NCBI GenBank assembly: GCA_937904325.1
Contig: CALGTK010000277.1
Span: 1-54,160 of the forward strand
Direction: 5' to 3'
DNA length: 54,160 nucleotides
Source of the DNA: an uncultured Planctomyces sp.
Lineage (GTDB): Bacteria; Planctomycetota; Planctomycetia; Planctomycetales; Planctomycetaceae
Shown piece after piece: positions 40,798 to 49,498 of the stretch. The position numbers and the translations under genes are program-made. Below the pieces are notes generated by a model. That model was given only the letters and a program-made list of their open reading frames with translations, was not told where the DNA came from and ran no database searches. The stretch's first letter is position 1. Every line of letters begins with the position of its first letter.

Positions 40798-40935
40798 TGC
40801 TTTGCCGCTTTAGGGTGACTGGCGTGTTGAGGTTCCGTTCGGTGGCGGTTAAAAGTTGGGGTATTGAACGCGCGATGCAGGCAGCTTCTGTCTGCTGCCG
40901 TTGCCAACTCAGCCCCAACTTCGAGAGTTCTCGTT

Positions 40936-42570
40936 GTGACGTCTTCGTCCGAATTTAAACTGCCCGCTGGCGACACTCAGTCCGAAGGTGACGCGGGCGC
41001 TGGTGACAGCACGCTTGACCTGCCTGACATGGATGCGTTGCCGGCTCGAAAAGAGCGTTCATCGAGTCCTGGTTCAACTGTCTTTGGCAATAAGCCGAAG
41101 AAGTCTGGCAAACGCACAACGTTCGAAACTGAGCTCCGGCAGCTCGGTGATTTTCGCATTAAAAAGGCGATCGGCGAAGGCAGTATGGGAGAAGTCTTCC
41201 TTGCTGAGCAGAGCAACCTTGGCCGGAAAGTTGCTTTGAAGTTTTTACCGAAGGAGTTTGCCGGCAACGAAACTTTGCTCGAACGCTTCCTGCGAGAAGC
41301 AAAGTCACTTGCCGCGTTGGACCATCCGCACATCGTTCGCATTTATGCGATGGGCGAGGAGAAAGGTCACCACTACGCGGCTATGGAGTTCATCGACGGA
41401 GCCTCGCTACAGGACATCCTCGATCAGAAGAAGCGACTACCGGTTGGCGATGCTGTTCAGATTACGCTTGTTTGTGCCGCCGCTCTGGAACACGCTCACG
41501 ACCTTGGCATCATTCATCGTGACGTTAAGCCGGCAAACATTCTGGTCTCGCGAGATGGTATGGCGAAGGTCGCGGACTTCGGGCTTGTCAAGCTAGTTCA
41601 GGCCGACATGTCGATGACAGCAACTGGCACGGGACTTGGCACGCCCGAGTACATGGCTCCTGAGCAATCTTATGACGCGCGCACCGCAACGCCAGCTTCG
41701 GATGTCTTTTCGCTTGGAGCGATGCTCTACGTTATGCTGACTGGCGAGTTGCCTTACAAAGGTTCGTCGGTTGTCGAGTTTCTCTCGTCTAAGCAGTCCG
41801 GTAAGTACGAACCGGCTAAATCGATTAACTCAGAAGTTCCCGAGCGGCTTGACCTGATTATCCACCGAACGCTCGTCCCGGAACCAAAGCAACGATACTC
41901 GAACTGTTCGGAGTTAATCCGTGATCTGGCAAAGCTCGGTCGTCACAACGACTCTCTAAGCTTCTGCAATAGCAATACTCCGTACGTGGCTTACGGCGCG
42001 TGGTCGAAATCTCTCGGCACCTCGTCGGTGAAATCTCCCGCCGCCGTTCCGGCATTGACGTCCGCAACCGCCTCAAAAAATAAAGCGTCGACCACATCTC
42101 AGTCTCACCGTTCTCCCGAATCCGCATCTGGTCCACAAACTACCGGGAAGATGTGGTACGTCTCGCACAAGAATAAGCTTGGCAAACAGGTTCTTTCGAA
42201 GATGATGACTGACGAGCTGATTCTGGCTTTGGAGCGGAAACTGCTGCCACCAAACGCTCAGGTTAAGTCAACTCAGAGCCAGCCATTTCGATCACTGAGC
42301 GATAATGCTGAGTTCCACCCGGTGCTGGGACGCCTTGGTGTTCAGATTCGAAAGTCGCCAGCAACACATCAAAAGTCACTCATCCCAAAAAAGAGGCTTC
42401 GAAAAAAGAAACGGTCAGAGACAACCGACCTGCTCCTGCGAGTCGTTGTCGGTCTTTGCGCGGCCTATGGATTAGTGCGAGGATTGATGGACATTGCCGG
42501 AGTCTTCCAGGACGCACCACCGCCTGCCACTGAAGAATCGAAAGAACCGAACCCTCAATCCCTACTGTAA
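40936..42570 (+). CDS. Hanks-type serine/threonine protein kinase (kinase 2)
   Basis: 544 residues from GTG 40936, with GAGAG about eight bases upstream; the frame is open to 40864. After an acidic, disordered start comes a complete kinase domain (about 75-340): GEGSMGEVFLAE, VALKFL, HRDVKPAN, ADFGLVK and GTPEYMAPEQ. A Ser/Thr/Ala-rich linker follows, then a segment MWYVSHKNKLGKQVLSKMMT that resembles a GYF_2-type domain. A transmembrane helix near the end (LLLRVVVGLCAAYGLVRGL) leaves only a short tail outside. The kinase and the GYF-like domain are therefore both cytoplasmic. The gene is followed 59 bases later by the YkgJ-like gene on the same strand. Confidence 0.92.
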   Translation: MTSSSEFKLPAGDTQSEGDAGAGDSTLDLPDMDALPARKERSSSPGSTVFGNKPKKSGKRTTFETELRQLGDFRIKKAIGEGSMGEVFLAEQSNLGRKVALKFLPKEFAGNETLLERFLREAKSLAALDHPHIVRIYAMGEEKGHHYAAMEFIDGASLQDILDQKKRLPVGDAVQITLVCAAALEHAHDLGIIHRDVKPANILVSRDGMAKVADFGLVKLVQADMSMTATGTGLGTPEYMAPEQSYDARTATPASDVFSLGAMLYVMLTGELPYKGSSVVEFLSSKQSGKYEPAKSINSEVPERLDLIIHRTLVPEPKQRYSNCSELIRDLAKLGRHNDSLSFCNSNTPYVAYGAWSKSLGTSSVKSPAAVPALTSATASKNKASTTSQSHRSPESASGPQTTGKMWYVSHKNKLGKQVLSKMMTDELILALERKLLPPNAQVKSTQSQPFRSLSDNAEFHPVLGRLGVQIRKSPATHQKSLIPKKRLRKKKRSETTDLLLRVVVGLCAAYGLVRGLMDIAGVFQDAPPPATEESKEPNPQSLL

Positions 42571-42629: not shown

Positions 42630-43892
42630 ATGTCTCTTCCTCCGCTTCAACTTCCAACGATTCAAAACTGGAGTTGCCACAACTGTTCTGGTTGTTGCAG
42701 GCAGCACCTGATTGAGATCACCGAGGAAGAACGACAGCGAATTCTTGACCAGAAGTGGACAGCGAAGGACGGCGTACCGGAGGGCAAGGCTGTTGTCCCT
42801 CATGGAAGTGGTCTGTTCAAAAAGAGCTGGCGGTTGGCTCATGGTTCAGACGGTGGATGTGTTTTCCTGAACGATGACGGGTTGTGCCGAATTCATGCGA
42901 AGTTTGGCGAGGCTGCGAAACCCCTGGCGTGTCGGATCTATCCATACGCTCTGCACCCAGCCGGTAAGAAGGTCACAGTCAGCCTGAGATTCAGTTGCCC
43001 CTCCGTCGTCGCGAATGTCGGCAAGCCCGTTTCGGAAAACCGTGACGAACTGAAGAAGATCGAGCGACTCGTCGTCCCGGAGAACGCTAATAAAGTCCCC
43101 CCCCCAGGAATCAGTAAAAACGAGCAGCTTGACTGGCCGGACACGCTGAAAATTGTCAACGCTTTGCACGAACTTGTCACGCAGGACGACGAGGTGGGAG
43201 TGATCGAACGCCTTTATCGGGCGTTGTTTGTTGTCGGCCTGGTTGACCAGGCACAGTTCGAGCTCATCCGCGGCGCACGGATGGGCGATTTTCTGGAGAT
43301 CATTTCTGAAGCTGCCCTTTTGGAAGAACTTCCTCAGCCAGCTCAACCGGTGGGCGTGATGCAAATGCAATTCCGACTACTGGTTGCTCACTACGCGAGA
43401 AAAGACACGGTTGCAGATCTTGATGCGGGATTCGCTGGTCGCTGGCGATTGTTTCGTGCCGCGACGAAGTTCGCATCGGGACGAGGCACTGCGGTGCCTC
43501 TCCAGGACTGTTTTCAGGAAGTTTCCTTTGAAACCATGGAACAGCCGTTCGGCGATTTTCCTGATGAATTTGACGAGATCCTCACTCGCTACTTAAGTGT
43601 GAAGTTGCAGGGGATGCACTTCTGCGGGCCGGCGTACTACGACATCCCACTTGTGGAAGGTTTTCGCAGTCTTGCTTTGGTTATTTCGGCGATGTGCTGG
43701 ATTGCGAAGTGGCTGGCTGCGAGCGATGGGCGTTCAACATGGACTACTGAAGACCTCAGCAAAGCCATGGCGATCGCTGATCATCATCATGGTTACTCGC
43801 CAATTTTCGGCAGTGGTGGTTTCCGCCGACGCGTTAATATGCTTGCGAAGACTGACGACCTGCTTCGCATCCTGCTTTGGTACGCCCGCTGA
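42630..43892 (+). CDS. YkgJ-family cysteine cluster protein
   Basis: 420 residues. The N-terminal cluster CHNCSGCCRQHLIEI matches the CxxCxxCC pattern of the zinc/iron-chelate family that includes the flagellin lysine N-methylase FliB. More cysteines follow in DDGLCRIH, KPLACRIYPYALHP and FSCPSVV, completing the expected metal-binding set. The C-terminal 250 residues are helical and unassigned. Activity cannot be stated: some relatives methylate proteins, others are of unknown role. It is probably co-transcribed with kinase 2 and is convergent with the sigma factor gene, 13 bases away. Confidence 0.85.
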   Translation: MSLPPLQLPTIQNWSCHNCSGCCRQHLIEITEEERQRILDQKWTAKDGVPEGKAVVPHGSGLFKKSWRLAHGSDGGCVFLNDDGLCRIHAKFGEAAKPLACRIYPYALHPAGKKVTVSLRFSCPSVVANVGKPVSENRDELKKIERLVVPENANKVPPPGISKNEQLDWPDTLKIVNALHELVTQDDEVGVIERLYRALFVVGLVDQAQFELIRGARMGDFLEIISEAALLEELPQPAQPVGVMQMQFRLLVAHYARKDTVADLDAGFAGRWRLFRAATKFASGRGTAVPLQDCFQEVSFETMEQPFGDFPDEFDEILTRYLSVKLQGMHFCGPAYYDIPLVEGFRSLALVISAMCWIAKWLAASDGRSTWTTEDLSKAMAIADHHHGYSPIFGSGGFRRRVNMLAKTDDLLRILLWYAR

Positions 43893-43905: not shown

Positions 43906-44586
43906 CTAAGTTTCGGCTACAAGCTCGGGCAGCGAAACATCGGTCAGGTGAGCGTCTTTGGCGGCAGCTTTCAGCTTTGAAACTACAAAGTATTTGTGAT
44001 TGGCGACGGCCTGTTCTGAGATACTCATGAATGTTGCAACGTCGCGATTCGGCCAGCCGAGCACGAACAGGAGCTCGACACATTGCAGTCGCTCGAATTC
44101 GCCGCTGCTTAACCATTGTTCGACCAGCGAAGAGAGACATCGGCCGACGACCGTCTGCTCTGCCTTCCGGTCTTCGCGACTGCGCATCATGCTTGATGCT
44201 CGCCGTGCGCTGCCGGCCGGTTCTGAAGACTTGCCGTCGTCGTCTGTTGGTGCGAACAGCGGAACAGTTGGTCGTCGTCCCTGTCGTCGCAAAACGTCGG
44301 TCAACTTGTGTGCTGCGATGGCGAAGAGAAACGATTCGACAGGCGTTGAGTCGTCGTAGTTGGGTAGACTCGTCAGGAATCCGACAAATGTCTCCTGAAC
44401 GATGTCTTCACTCAAGCTCTTGTTCACGAGACGCGCGTTTGAAAATGCCAGCAGACGACCTTCGTACTGCGTGATGAACTGCTGCCATGCCACGGGATCG
44501 CCATCCCGCACCTGGCGAAGCATTAACTGGTCAGCTTGATTCACGCGTGGAGATTCCTGTCGAGCTTTGCGAAACGTCTCAGGCAT
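43906..44586 (-). CDS. ECF-type sigma-70 family RNA polymerase sigma factor
   Basis: 226 residues from ATG 44586, preceded by GAGG; a TTG one codon earlier is also open. Region 2 is visible in LMLRQVRDGDPVAWQQFI and LVNKSLSEDIVQETFVGFL. Region 4 is near the C-terminus: QCVELLFVLGWPNRDVATFM followed by the recognition helix ISEQAVANHKYFVVSKL. It lacks regions 1 and 3, as ECF factors do. No anti-sigma factor with the usual zinc motif is nearby. It starts five bases after the stop of the membrane protein gene, so the two are translated from one transcript. Confidence 0.92.
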   Translation of the reverse strand: MPETFRKARQESPRVNQADQLMLRQVRDGDPVAWQQFITQYEGRLLAFSNARLVNKSLSEDIVQETFVGFLTSLPNYDDSTPVESFLFAIAAHKLTDVLRRQGRRPTVPLFAPTDDDGKSSEPAGSARRASSMMRSREDRKAEQTVVGRCLSSLVEQWLSSGEFERLQCVELLFVLGWPNRDVATFMSISEQAVANHKYFVVSKLKAAAKDAHLTDVSLPELVAET

Positions 44587-44591
44587 CAACC

Positions 44592-45488
44592 TCAGGCAAC
44601 GAAGATTAAACCAACCAGCCCCAGCCCGGCAAAGGCCAGAGCCGTCATGATGGTGCGTCCGCGGCTTCCTTTTGCCGCAGACACGGCTCGAAGCCCTGCG
44701 GAGACAACTCCAAGCAACGCTGCTAATACTCCGAATCCGATTCCGAACCGCGTCGCCTGGTTACTGGAGAAAGTGCTCTTCCAGGCTTCGATCACTGGTT
44801 CTCTGGTTTCCGCCGAGTCCATGTATTGAAGGTAGACTCGGTACATCGGTTCTTCATAGATACCGAAATTGTGCATTCGCTTTTCAACGTGAAATTCCTG
44901 TACCGAGGCTTCTCGAAAGACACTCTCGGGTACTGGTTGGACGGCAAGCTTGCTGTATGTTGCGGCGAGTCGCGATCGGAAATTGCTGATAGCATTCTTC
45001 ATGGCCTCAGCCATTGCTTCTTCCTGTGTCGAATACAAGCCGCTTGTTTCAACAAACAGAACATGAGGTACTTCGCCGGTCGTCCGAGTGGTCTCTTTAT
45101 CCTTTGTCCAGTTTGGTGGCTGCGTCGAATCATTGTCGGTTTCTTTAGAGGCAGCCTTCGTAGGGACTAAGTCAGCTTCCTCAGTCGAAGTAACGACCAG
45201 AGCAACCGGGGCAGTGTCAGGCATGCTGGAAACGACGGCGCGTTCCAGGACCATTTGGTCATGCTCCACGCCCTTTAAACTCCATATCCACACGCCTGCA
45301 ACCAGCAGACTGACACCTAACAGCATAGGCCACAGGACACTGCGAGGATGCGAAACGGGGCTTCCTGTTGCGATCGATTGTTGCCTGCGATGTGAGCGGC
45401 CCGTGAAGGTTCGCAAAACTATCGTGAGGATGAACAGGCATCCGAGCCCAGCTATACCGAATGCAAGTAGTGACATTAGTGCCAACAT
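44592..45488 (-). CDS. Membrane protein of unknown function upstream of the sigma factor
   Basis: 298 residues from ATG 45488; the frame is open to 45566. Two transmembrane helices lie in the first 75 residues (LMSLLAFGIAGLGCLFIL and VLWPMLLGVSLLVAGVWIW) and two near the end (FGIGFGVLAALLGVVSAGL and MTALAFAGLGLVGLIFV). Between them is an exported domain of about 170 residues, with a Thr-rich stretch followed by VPHVLFVETSGLYSTQEEAM. I do not recognise a family. Its place directly before the sigma factor gene suggests that it could control or respond to the sigma factor, but it lacks an anti-sigma motif. Confidence 0.8.
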   Translation of the reverse strand: MLALMSLLAFGIAGLGCLFILTIVLRTFTGRSHRRQQSIATGSPVSHPRSVLWPMLLGVSLLVAGVWIWSLKGVEHDQMVLERAVVSSMPDTAPVALVVTSTEEADLVPTKAASKETDNDSTQPPNWTKDKETTRTTGEVPHVLFVETSGLYSTQEEAMAEAMKNAISNFRSRLAATYSKLAVQPVPESVFREASVQEFHVEKRMHNFGIYEEPMYRVYLQYMDSAETREPVIEAWKSTFSSNQATRFGIGFGVLAALLGVVSAGLRAVSAAKGSRGRTIMTALAFAGLGLVGLIFVA

Positions 45489-45617
45489 AAAATGTTCCCT
45501 GAAATATGAACTGGAGCCGCGTCCATAGTTGACTCTGATCGGAGTTGAATTGAATGACGTCGTCAACGTTGCCAGTAGACAAAGAAGTTACCTCACCGAA
45601 TAACAACCAGGCCAGGT

Positions 45618-47525
45618 TCAGACTTTGTGAGCGGTGCGTTGATCAGGACGAACCCAGACGGCTGCAAGTTGTGCCGTCGTTGACATTGCGATTGCCCACA
45701 GAACGGCCCACTCGACCGGGAAGTGCGTCGTCAAAGAAAGCAGCCAGGCGGCTGCAGCAGTCCAAAAGACTGAGGTGACTCGAATTCGATGGGGGCGGTA
45801 AGCGTCGACGTGGAACCACCAGCGACGAACTAACATTATGACCGAAAAAAATACGACGTAGCCAATCAATCGCGACGCGTCTCCGAAGCTGAGTGAGACA
45901 GGCAGGAAATTGTGACTGGAGATCTGGGTCGCGACCGGGTCCATGACGCTTCGAACTGGAAGATCGACCATCAGCGCATCATCAACGCCGAATGCTGCAA
46001 CACCAACGGCAGCTCCCAGTAGACCGGTCATCATTCGGCGAATAGATCCGTCTCCGCCACGACCTTCCCATATTTTTGCCGGTAGAATGGCTGCCCACGC
46101 TCCCAGCGCGGTGACAATCCCGAAGAATGTTGCTTGCGTTGGAGTGTCGACTGTAGTCTTCGTTGCAAACAGAGCAAACGCGATCGCCGCTGAACAAACC
46201 GTAGCAACTGCCATAGATCCGGTCGATTCGGCGACCCTGTCCAGCCTGCCGAGTTGTCTCTCGCTGTGCGCGGATTCGTATCTGACGTATCCAGTGTTGA
46301 GTCTTACTCCTTGAGTGTGGTCTTTCCTGACGCCGGGCTCGTTTCCTGAGAATACGTTGACTGCCCATCTTACCAGACCGAACGATCCGGCAGCGAAAGT
46401 CAGCAGGATCAACAGGGAAGTTGCGAGAGTGAACAGTGGGATTCCAACCCCCGCGATGATAGGAGAGAGGAATACCAACAGAACCACACTGCCAGCCACA
46501 ATCATCCAGTTGCCAGGCCGTTGAATCCACTCCGCAAGTTCCTGCCAGTACCTTTGCTTTGCGTTATAGACTTCAGCGCGTCGATGATCCTCTGATTTAT
46601 TGAGCCGTTCGCCGGGGGTTGGTTCGTCCTCGTAATTCGCAGTAACGTTTACAGCGATCGACGGAGGCACTGGTCTGGCTGTGCCGTGAAGCGCCGCTGA
46701 GAATTCCTGGGAAAGTTGCGCTGCACTTAATGTTCGCTTTTCTGGATCCTTAGCGAGAGCTCGTTCGACAACCGGCCGGATCGCTGGTGGTAGCGTGCTG
46801 AGGTCGGGCTCGGCGGACAGTTGCTTCATCAGGATTTCACCCGTCGACTCGCCGTCGAACGGAACGTTGCCGGTCAGCATCTCGTAGAGCATGACGCCGA
46901 TCGCGTAGACGTCGACTTCTTTGCCATAGCGACCGTGAGCGATTTCCGGAGCCATGTAGTAGACCGTGCCGACACTTTGCGTCTGAGCACTTCGGCGACT
47001 TTCGGAAATGAACTTCGCGAGGCCGACATCGCCGATCTTGATGAGGCCGTTTTCGAGATAGATGTTGGCTGGCTTGAGGTCACGATGAACGATGCCGCGT
47101 TCATGCAGGTAGTCGGCTCCGGCGGCGATCTGGTTCAACATATCTTCGACAGATTCGAGGTCAATGCCGTCTGGCTTCTCGGCAATTACTTCGCCCAGTG
47201 TTCGACCAGCAACGTATTCCATGATGACGAACTGTTCGCCAGCAGCCGACTCCTTAACGTCAAAGATGGTCAGCAGATTTGAATGTTTCAGGTTCAGGCA
47301 CTGGGCGATCCCACGCAGCTCAACATCCGCATTAGCCTGCAGCAGTTTCAGAGCGACCTCTTTGCCGCCGTCACTCAGCGCGTAGTAGACCTCGCCGAAT
47401 CCACCTCGCTGGATCGCGCGTTTAATCGTGTAGCCATCGAGCGGCTTTGATTCCGGTTCATATCTGAAGTTCATCGAACCACCGCCCTTTCGCGGGCCCT
47501 GCCTGAGGTCGATTGTTGTATTCAT
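45618..47525 (-). CDS. Hanks-type serine/threonine kinase with multi-helix membrane domain (kinase 3)
   Basis: 635 residues. The kinase domain (about 30-285) has IQRGGFGEVYYA, VALKLL, HRDLKPAN, and MAPEIAHG. The activation loop begins GDVGLAK, so the DFG Phe is Val while the catalytic Asp is kept; activity is likely but not certain. After a linker the C-terminal half carries about eight hydrophobic segments, including WMIVAGSVVLLVFLSPIIAG and MAVATVCSAAIAFALFA. This is an unusually large membrane domain for a bacterial kinase and could be a sensor. It lies between the FHA-like and membrane protein genes. Confidence 0.9.
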   Translation of the reverse strand: MNTTIDLRQGPRKGGGSMNFRYEPESKPLDGYTIKRAIQRGGFGEVYYALSDGGKEVALKLLQANADVELRGIAQCLNLKHSNLLTIFDVKESAAGEQFVIMEYVAGRTLGEVIAEKPDGIDLESVEDMLNQIAAGADYLHERGIVHRDLKPANIYLENGLIKIGDVGLAKFISESRRSAQTQSVGTVYYMAPEIAHGRYGKEVDVYAIGVMLYEMLTGNVPFDGESTGEILMKQLSAEPDLSTLPPAIRPVVERALAKDPEKRTLSAAQLSQEFSAALHGTARPVPPSIAVNVTANYEDEPTPGERLNKSEDHRRAEVYNAKQRYWQELAEWIQRPGNWMIVAGSVVLLVFLSPIIAGVGIPLFTLATSLLILLTFAAGSFGLVRWAVNVFSGNEPGVRKDHTQGVRLNTGYVRYESAHSERQLGRLDRVAESTGSMAVATVCSAAIAFALFATKTTVDTPTQATFFGIVTALGAWAAILPAKIWEGRGGDGSIRRMMTGLLGAAVGVAAFGVDDALMVDLPVRSVMDPVATQISSHNFLPVSLSFGDASRLIGYVVFFSVIMLVRRWWFHVDAYRPHRIRVTSVFWTAAAAWLLSLTTHFPVEWAVLWAIAMSTTAQLAAVWVRPDQRTAHKV

Positions 47526-47656
47526 GGTTTACCGTTTGGACAAACTCAATCGAGTCATCATTAACTGGATCGGCTTTGCCGGGCATTCAGTGTGTCCGTT
47601 CTGTCGACGTTCCGGCGGTAACTCCTCAAACGCTGTTTCCTGTATTCGGACTTCTG

Positions 47657-48334
47657 TCAGACCAATGGTTCGAGGCGAAAACGAAAGTCGTCGCCGCTGA
47701 CAACCTGGCCACCTGAAACGACATCAGATGCCACAGCCTTACAACCACCGATCTGCAACTCCTGCTTTGACTTCGCAACAATTCCAGACGGCGTCTGCAC
47801 CAGCACGACTGACTCCGTCCAGCTTCGACACAGAATGTGATCGCTGGTAGAAGGTCCCAGCAGGCATGTCTCCGCCATGAGAATCACTCCGTCGACCGAA
47901 GTTCGTGACCGGTGCTCGCTCGCAAACGTCATCTTCGCCGTGGCACTCAGTGGCGTCGGAATCGAAAAGGAAAGCCGAACAGAATCGCCGAGTGTGATCT
48001 CGCAACTGTCCGGTAAAACCGTGTCGTATGAGATCGGTCTGTTTTGAATCTGCACAGAAGACTTCGGACTCAAAACGTAGTTCTCATCGATTCTCTGAAT
48101 GCTGGCGTGACTGCGAGACAGATTCGCAACTAACGCGATGTCGGCTTCTGGCTCACTCACTGGCGTTTTTATCAGTGGGCTCACGTTGCCGTTGACCCGT
48201 CCCAGCGAGACGGAAGAACCAGTCAGAATCAGCCACGCTCCGACACCATCGATCCAGGCAACGTATCGGTCAGTAGTCGCCTGACTCTCCGACGAAACGG
48301 CCTTAGATGCCAGACTGAAGAACGAGCTGATCAT
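47657..48334 (-). CDS. FHA-domain-like protein
   Basis: 225 residues from ATG 48334, which follows GAGAGACGAG; the frame is open to 48418. The FHA fold is suggested by WLILTGSSVSLGRVNG (the first strand with the conserved G-R), LVANLSRSHASIQRID (the conserved S-x-x-H) and ENYVLSPKSSVQIQNRPIS (the usual loop with N). FHA domains bind phosphothreonine. The C-terminal 110 residues are beta-rich and may be a second related domain. It sits just before a kinase gene on the same strand, the usual arrangement for reader and writer of threonine phosphorylation. Confidence 0.8.
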   Translation of the reverse strand: MISSFFSLASKAVSSESQATTDRYVAWIDGVGAWLILTGSSVSLGRVNGNVSPLIKTPVSEPEADIALVANLSRSHASIQRIDENYVLSPKSSVQIQNRPISYDTVLPDSCEITLGDSVRLSFSIPTPLSATAKMTFASEHRSRTSVDGVILMAETCLLGPSTSDHILCRSWTESVVLVQTPSGIVAKSKQELQIGGCKAVASDVVSGGQVVSGDDFRFRLEPLV

Positions 48335-48451
48335 GATGTCTCGTCTCTCGTCAAGGAAGGTCCGAAGCGGACCGACAGTCTGCTTCATGCAGCCTGCCGA
48401 TCCGTATGAGCGATTCACTTTTTGCCAGACAGAGAATCAGAAGACGCTTCG

Positions 48452-49261
48452 TTACTTCGTTGAAACGGTGTCTTCGAACGGTGCTTCGTTTCCGAAGTAG
48501 GCATCCACCGAGTCGGCAACGCTCTTTGAAGACTCTTCGGTTTCAACCGGGATCAGGTCCGTTTCCTTGCCTTCGAGTGAAAGCTCCCGTTCACGAACAT
48601 CGACCTTGGCATCAAGACTGTCCAGCAACTCTTTTATATTAGAGAGCTTGGAGTCGTCGAATTCAGATTCGGCGACCGTTTCAGCAGCCTTCACTGCACT
48701 TACACGTGCTTCGAGTTCTTCGATCTGCAAACGCAGCTCTTCGCGAGCTCCAAGGAGTTTTTCTACTTTGTCCTCGTTGGCAACGACGGCCTGTCGTTTG
48801 GCTTCGAGTACTTTCGCTTCCGATTTGAAGGTCTGCTCCAGCGTTTTGAATCGATCGAATCGCTTTCCGAGATCTTCTTCCAGCTCGCTCTTTGTGTAGC
48901 TGACATCGTTAACAAGGAACGTCGTTTTCTTCGATTTTAACTGGTCATTCCTGGTCATGATTTCAGCACGTCGCTGAGTGACTGTTTCCTGCTTTTCGTC
49001 GAGATTTGCCTGCAGATGCTCCACCGCGACCTGCGACTCAGCAACGGCGTGCTTCATCTTGCGGATTTCGGGCTCCAATTCGTTTTCGAGCATGTCTTTG
49101 GCTCGTTTGAGCTGAAACTCGATTGGAATGGCATCTTCGACGGCGCTTGTCATTTCGTTCTTCGCCGTGCGAACGTAGCTGAACCAGCTTGTGCCGAGGA
49201 CAAGTGTGCCGAGTGCCAAAGCACTTACTCCACCAACGATTGCGGTTTTCATTGAAACCAT
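48452..49261 (-). CDS. Coiled-coil membrane-anchored protein
   Basis: 269 residues from ATG 49261, with GGAGACA about nine bases upstream. One transmembrane helix lies near the start (AIVGGVSALALGTLVLGTSW). The rest is almost entirely coiled coil, rich in Glu, Lys and Ala (for example QLKRAKDMLENELEPEIRKM and LGAREELRLQIEELEARVSA). The tail is acidic with Ser (ETEESSKSVADSVDAYF). It resembles PspA-like coiled-coil proteins in length and composition but lacks a clear family motif. It opens the minus-strand group that ends with the sigma factor. Confidence 0.85.
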   Translation of the reverse strand: MVSMKTAIVGGVSALALGTLVLGTSWFSYVRTAKNEMTSAVEDAIPIEFQLKRAKDMLENELEPEIRKMKHAVAESQVAVEHLQANLDEKQETVTQRRAEIMTRNDQLKSKKTTFLVNDVSYTKSELEEDLGKRFDRFKTLEQTFKSEAKVLEAKRQAVVANEDKVEKLLGAREELRLQIEELEARVSAVKAAETVAESEFDDSKLSNIKELLDSLDAKVDVRERELSLEGKETDLIPVETEESSKSVADSVDAYFGNEAPFEDTVSTK

Positions 49262-49474
49262 AACTGTGTCTCCTTGATAACTGGTCTAAATTTGTCAGAT
49301 GGCAGGTTTTGTTGAACGAGCATCGCTCGACGTGGATCAAAGTTCTGAAGAGTAGTTCGCTGGCCGCCTCGGAATATTAGCCAGGACTGAAGTGATTTCA
49401 GGAGTTGTCCGTAAGTGATTACTGAATAAGGAGTTACAGGCTTCCGAATTCACAGAACATCACGTTTGTTAAAA

Positions 49475-49498
49475 AAGACGACCGAACTCGGTCGTCTT
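49475..49498 (-). terminator. Terminator after the lectin-like protein gene
   Basis: The arms AAGACGACCGA and TCGGTCGTCTT form a perfect stem around a two-base centre. Read on the minus strand the stem is followed by TTTT. It lies 37 bases after the stop of the secreted lectin-like protein and separates it from the coiled-coil gene downstream. Confidence 0.8.

Follow-up and report, generated by a model that had tools for sequence, protein, structure and literature searches.

Extracytoplasmic function (ECF) sigma factors linked to Hanks-type kinases are already known, as the initial annotation of the locus described here had noted for other bacteria, and planctomycete groups of that kind were predicted earlier (PMC8999054). 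ECF43 factors lack the acidic charges of region 2.2 and gain them through phosphorylation (PMC8999054, PMC13147305). PknS of Xanthomonas phosphorylates EcfK in the linker between sigma2 and sigma4, where T106 is required for activity; this linker is described as nonconserved in ECF factors (PMC13147305). Here, we analyzed a contig of a Planctomycetaceae genome (an uncultured Planctomyces sp.; CALGTK010000277.1, 54,160 nucleotides [nt], referred to as the window), which carries a minus-strand operon encoding, in transcription order, a coiled-coil protein, an FHA-like protein, a membrane Hanks-type kinase, a four-helix membrane protein, and an ECF sigma factor. All five genes listed in the initial annotation were confirmed as open reading frames (ORFs). 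In our estimate, there is a slightly better than even chance that these genes form a kinase-gated, self-amplifying envelope-stress sigma system encoded by an ancestral operon of the class.

To examine conservation of the operon, 60 loci from Planctomycetaceae and 20 loci from other families were annotated with profiles of the five window proteins. All five genes were present in order at 18 of the 60 Planctomycetaceae loci, and at 10 further loci the coiled-coil, kinase, membrane protein, and sigma genes were linked without a detectable FHA gene; these 28 linked loci cover 21 genera. The block was also kept at 18 of 20 loci from other families (at one, the contig ends before the coiled-coil gene), and linked genes were separated by median gaps of 15 to 128 nt. 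Gene order is thus conserved across genera and families far beyond chance, which answers in the affirmative the question of conserved order raised in the initial annotation. Upstream genes were still together in 11 of 11 loci chosen for a membrane protein gene lying away from sigma, and the coiled-coil and sigma genes were ~5 kb apart in two further families and in some members of a third.

The same association was seen in gene content. Of 170 genomes of the order, 150 have a sigma orthologue (E value of ≤1e-15), as do 264 of 297 sampled class genomes; with few exceptions, the gene is single copy. Coiled-coil orthologues (E value of ≤1e-8) were found in 253 of 294 class genomes. Sigma identity within Planctomycetaceae, outside the genus, was 42 to 67%. 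A phylum-wide search beyond the class returned only matches of ~30% identity, which were rejected as the same orthologue because of this low identity. Presence lists compiled by hand for 213 class genomes outside Planctomycetaceae showed both coiled coil and sigma in 166, sigma only in 17, coiled coil only in 7, and neither in 23 (Fisher P value of 2e-14, uncorrected for shared descent).

Several variants of the locus were seen. At four loci with a detached sigma gene (L118, L123, L125, and L099), a different membrane protein with 4 to 5 helices and 403 to 463 amino acids is encoded directly upstream of sigma (in three cases with a 4-bp overlap between the genes) and is possibly a replacement partner. 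In one genus (g44; L107 and L120), a diverged membrane protein of 391 amino acids replaces the usual one, and no FHA gene is detectable. The genome from which the window derives also contains a truncated sigma paralogue (L002; contig C449, positions 2505 to 2693; 57% identity over 63 residues) without linker and sigma4.

A class-wide ECF-like motif, CCAAGATT-N12-GCGAATNAC (consensus CCAAgATt-N12-GCGAAtnAC), was identified upstream of the coiled-coil gene; in the window it reads CTAATATT-N12-GCGAACTAC (Table 1). The bipartite core AAGA-N15-CGAA was present at 33 of 56 loci; among shuffled sequences, no bipartite pattern exceeded 6. After refinement of the matrix, scores of ≥9.8 were obtained for 52 of 56 loci, each left out of the matrix in turn, against a shuffle maximum of 9.8 and a 99th percentile of 9.0 for other upstream regions; shuffles were not refitted for this matrix, and the bipartite-core counts are the cleaner test. 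ECF promoters have an AAC-N17-GTC geometry, which the CAA-N17-CGA geometry of the motif equals. A sigma-70 promoter scan of the operon yielded nothing above chance. Genomes whose sigma gene is detached still have the motif before the operon (L156, L158, L161, and L163 to L165), and a second copy lies directly before the membrane protein gene at five loci from other families (L132, L133, L136, L139, and L147).

We also searched 24 genomes for the motif, allowing ≤2 mismatches, and obtained 177 matches, compared to 26 for the reversed pattern. Among 80 sites in fetched regions, 16 were noncoding and located 15 to 80 nt before a start codon (2.35% for random positions; P value of 6e-11). The genes downstream belong mostly to membrane families (loci L286 to L365): they include DUF4870, TM2, AIM24 (twice, in two families), LemA, bacterial PH domain, DUF1232, and SPFH/Band 7 proteins, two DUF4252 homologues in two genera, and, by inspection of sequence alone, an NfeD-like protein, a YidC-like protein, and two further ECF sigma factors. 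In the genome of the window, the sole clearly promoter-placed match among those fetched precedes a TM2 gene (L347). TM2 homologues carried the motif in 11 of 26 genomes, compared to 2.5% of random windows, while in the sigma-negative genome G248 (L377), a single case, the TM2 gene is present without it. We infer that the operon's own sigma factor recognizes the motif and regard the motif-bearing membrane genes as a candidate envelope regulon.

The sigma protein matches Sigma70_r2 (3e-11) and TIGR02937 (49.4 bits versus a cut-off of 42.9), which places it among the ECF (group 4) factors, a group defined by having sigma2 and sigma4 but no sigma3. Residue conservation was counted over 131 distinct orthologues. 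Region 2.2 reads xSED/xAED-VVQE, with the E-D pair of the DAED contact to core RNA polymerase kept (Table 1). The initial annotation had suggested looking for a conserved threonine between regions 2.1 and 2.2; none was found at the ECF43 position in the 131 orthologues. Together, the kept E-D pair and the lack of threonine at that place rule out a phospho-switch of the ECF43 type. The sigma2-sigma4 linker contains the motif R-x-A-S-S-x-x-R-S, in which S132 (100%), S133 (97%), S137 (98%), R129 (97%), and R136 (96%) are conserved and which is not present in the sigma paralogues read from the same genome. We consider the invariant linker serines a specific candidate phospho-site of sigma; binding of RNA polymerase or of the zinc protein described below could also account for their conservation.

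The kinase domain (residues 32 to 271) is followed by about 7 predicted transmembrane helices, and the nearest solved kinases are StkP, PknA, and PknB. Catalytic motifs VALK, HRDLKPAN, DVG, and YMAPE are present, so that the protein departs from the canon only in the F of DFG, as had been noticed initially. HRD was found in 57 of 58 relatives, and the same 57 have DVG, DYG, or DIG, with DFG in none, indicating that DVG is a family trait and no sign of a dead kinase. The FHA protein of the window matches Pfam FHA below the curated cut-off (E value of 0.0022); 18 of 21 relatives match, the best at 4e-9. Its FHA domain (residues ~51 to 155) is followed by a second beta-rich, FHA-like half (residues 158 to 252), and the AlphaFold model shows two beta-rich halves with a predicted local distance difference test (pLDDT) score of >90 across most of residues 51 to 252. 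The first half matched the FHA domains of GarA/Rv0020c in Foldseek (E value of ~4e-4) and EmbR in a profile search (E value of 3.6e-5), and relatives for the most part retain Ser and His of the SRxH motif.

The coiled-coil protein is well conserved and consists of an N-terminal membrane segment followed by a long coiled coil. The four-helix membrane protein had no Pfam match, and a profile search of solved structures gave only weak transmembrane matches. It contains an extracytoplasmic alpha/beta domain (residues 127 to 240; AlphaFold pLDDT of >88), for which Foldseek returned nothing significant; the best structural match was a weak one to Lpp20 (5ok8; VIA-align Z score of 5.6, 100 aligned residues, root mean square deviation of 4.1 Å).

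A sixth gene, encoding a protein of 131 to 154 residues, lies near sigma in 15 of 20 loci from other families, usually directly downstream. The 20 members examined share an invariant C-x24-H-x5-C-x2-C pattern, which differs from the classical zinc anti-sigma motif (H-x3-C-x2-C) in its H-x5 spacing, and a conserved basic tail with two serines (SS). Pfam zf-HC2 was matched by 14 of 20 members (best, 1e-6) and the NCBIfam anti-sigma profile by 9 of 20 (best, 7e-9); neither profile matched the copy in the genome of the window, and a profile search of solved structures gave nothing relevant and no solved anti-sigma. An orthologue is present as a single copy in 152 of 170 genomes of the order. It is unlinked to sigma in every Planctomycetaceae locus examined and, in the genome of the window, is located on another contig (C371:2329-2715; L167:2323-2766). 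The initial annotation, which had noted that there was no zinc anti-sigma motif, was correct for the window locus only: in most other families the gene adjoins sigma, and the present genome has its copy away from the operon. Absence of the motif from the window is therefore no proof of an anti-sigma-free sigma, and an anti-sigma step may well take part in the control of sigma.

We propose that the two membrane proteins with extracytoplasmic parts and the multi-helix half of the kinase would sense envelope or membrane disturbance and that the kinase, whose catalytic motifs are seen, would become active. It could then activate sigma directly at the linker serines, like PknS at T106 of the EcfK linker in Xanthomonas, or alternatively loosen the zinc anti-sigma-type partner from sigma; the FHA protein may dock kinase and target. 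Freed sigma would recognize CCAAGATT-N12-GCGAATNAC. The motif before the operon itself would provide positive feedback, and the motif before TM2, SPFH/Band 7, LemA, AIM24, and DUF4870 genes would allow membrane-homeostasis genes to be switched on.

Several observations weigh against this proposal. In Planctomycetaceae, about half of the loci have a detached sigma gene (it stands alone at 30 of 60), and the motif was not found upstream of detached sigma genes. Motif density separates sigma-negative from sigma-positive genomes weakly (0.77 versus 1.17 per Mb), a comparison weakened by the location of about half of the genome-wide matches within coding sequence. Since no FHA gene was detected at 10 of these 28 loci of Planctomycetaceae in which the other genes are linked, FHA is not essential to the unit. 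Only the genus of the window and one near relative retain the phosphothreonine-contacting Arg of the FHA GR motif; most relatives have another residue there. The FHA fold behind the earlier "FHA-like reader" was confirmed, but loss of this canonical Arg suggests that the protein may serve for docking and not as a classical reader. The kinase-driven sigma switch of the initial annotation gains from the conserved five-gene unit and the kinase motifs; it loses from the lack of an ECF43-type threonine and from the existence of a zinc anti-sigma-type partner.

Three other explanations were weighed. Control of sigma may lie mainly with the zinc protein, on which the kinase would act or which it would tune, sigma itself being unphosphorylated. 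This is a minority possibility that we take seriously: the zinc gene is directly downstream of sigma in most loci from other families, its product combines the invariant C-x24-H-x5-C-x2-C pattern with anti-sigma and zf-HC2 matches, and, with its E-D pair for core binding in place, sigma could be active unless restrained. PknB acting on the anti-sigma factors of SigH and SigE in Mycobacterium provides a precedent (PMC8999054). The H-x5-C-x2-C spacing in place of H-x3-C-x2-C, the failure of profiles to find a solved anti-sigma, and the placement of the gene away from the locus throughout the sampled Planctomycetaceae argue in the other direction.

The other two explanations concern the tie between the operon and its sigma factor. 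The coiled-coil, FHA, kinase, and membrane protein block is intact without sigma in many Planctomycetaceae genera, and some genomes have only one of coiled coil and sigma, as would be expected if the block were an independent envelope kinase with targets elsewhere and its linkage to sigma reflected ancestral co-expression. We find this quite unlikely, as the operon motif stays ECF-like and conserved after departure of the sigma gene and the phyletic co-occurrence of coiled coil and sigma is strong. It is also rather doubtful that another ECF sigma factor or a transcription factor reads the motif and that the operon's sigma has a different regulon. There are many ECF factors per genome (17 matches in the genome of the window), other ECF sigma genes likewise have the motif upstream (L318 and L330), and some matches remain in sigma-negative genomes. 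However, ECF operons usually carry self-promoters, motif and operon sigma are both class-wide, and the sole sigma-negative genome with a TM2 homologue, G248, has no motif there.

Coordinates of the operon and its features are given in Table 1. A terminator of the preceding gene closes the 5′ side of the operon, and on the 3′ side an opposite-strand gene (42630 to 43892) converges on the sigma gene. Sigma probably starts at GTG 44544 rather than at TTG 44589, as judged from an AGGA 10 nt ahead of this GTG and from relatives, which start near the same residue. The gap to the membrane protein gene would therefore be ~47 nt; the five bases given in the initial annotation depend on the annotated start. 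The membrane protein probably starts at ATG 45488. Two genes convergent to the operon, at 40864 to 42570 and 42630 to 43892, encode a second kinase (with canonical DFG) and a CxxCxxCC/FliB-like protein and are kept beside the operon within the genus.

Table 1. Features of the sigma-kinase operon (positions in the 54,160-nt window)
Feature	Position	Strand	Remarks
Terminator (intrinsic) of preceding gene	49471-49498	-	10-bp stem then T-run; -16.3 kcal/mol, z -4.7
Operon promoter motif	49352-49380	-	Leave-one-out position weight matrix score 26.9; shuffles max 9.8
Coiled-coil gene, first of operon	48452-49261	-	ORF; no curated Pfam/NCBIfam match
FHA-like gene	47657-48418	-	ORF; FHA domain
Membrane Hanks-type kinase gene	45618-47525	-	Pfam Pkinase, E value 3.6e-47
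Four-helix membrane protein gene	ORF 44592-45566; likely 44592-45488	-	Probable start ATG 45488
ECF sigma gene	ORF 43906-44589 (TTG); likely 43906-44544 (GTG)	-	Sigma70_r2, TIGR02937
E-D of DAED core RNA polymerase contact, region 2.2	44404-44409	-	E 97%, D 100% of 131 orthologues
Sigma2-sigma4 linker motif R-x-A-S-S-x-x-R-S	44179-44205	-	Candidate phospho-site or docking site

Planctomycete genomes encode ECF sigma factors and kinases by the dozen, and for hardly any of them is a signal, target, or promoter known. The unit described here is near-universal in the class and offers a concrete promoter sequence, a few candidate phospho-sites, and a candidate membrane-gene regulon, so that it is well suited to initial work on membrane guarding in planctomycetes. 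If the proposal is true, bacteria noted for their heavily folded membranes would gain a first defined envelope-stress response, and Hanks kinases would be seen to be coupled to sigma factors in a second manner, by a switch in the linker instead of region 2.2. In the literature searched, short of the ECF re-classification and a planctomycete ECF survey, we found no description of the gene set, promoter code, or regulon. By its partners (FHA, coiled-coil, and zinc proteins), its retained acidic pair, and its linker serines, the unit is at least a new form of a known kind. The predicted kinase-linked planctomycete groups ECF59, ECF61, ECF62, and ECF217 resemble the unit in combining a planctomycete ECF sigma factor with an adjacent kinase gene (table in PMC8999054), and the sigma factor described here may belong to one of them.

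Comparison with better-studied systems places the unit between several of them. EmbR/GarA-type FHA proteins also pair an FHA fold with adjoining PknB-like kinases; the window protein differs in having tandem FHA-like halves and no DNA-binding domain that we could see, and its family has mostly lost the phosphothreonine-binding Arg. The SigH/SigE-RshA/RseA-PknB systems of Mycobacterium tuberculosis likewise combine a zinc anti-sigma with a Ser/Thr kinase acting on the pair (PMC8999054), but there the kinase is a global cell-wall kinase, whereas in the planctomycete unit it is encoded with sigma. With ECF43 (EcfK-PknS of Xanthomonas citri and EcfP-PknT of Vibrio parahaemolyticus), the unit shares an ECF sigma factor encoded beside a membrane Hanks kinase (PMC13147305, PMC8999054), the kinase gene being two genes upstream of sigma in a class-wide order, and a Ser/Thr-bearing sigma2-sigma4 linker as a candidate phospho-site (PMC13147305). 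Unlike ECF43, the planctomycete sigma keeps E-D in region 2.2 and lacks the ECF43 threonine, and its FHA, coiled-coil, and membrane partners are additional to the ECF43 arrangement, as is the zinc anti-sigma-type gene found in most other families. Tentatively, and as a possibility to which we assign well under an even chance, the unit may be a class-wide envelope-stress sigma system unlike both RpoE/RseA and ECF43, in which a membrane kinase with extracytoplasmic partners of its own would gate a nearly universal core sigma via linker serines and a zinc partner and the motif would drive membrane-remodelling genes.

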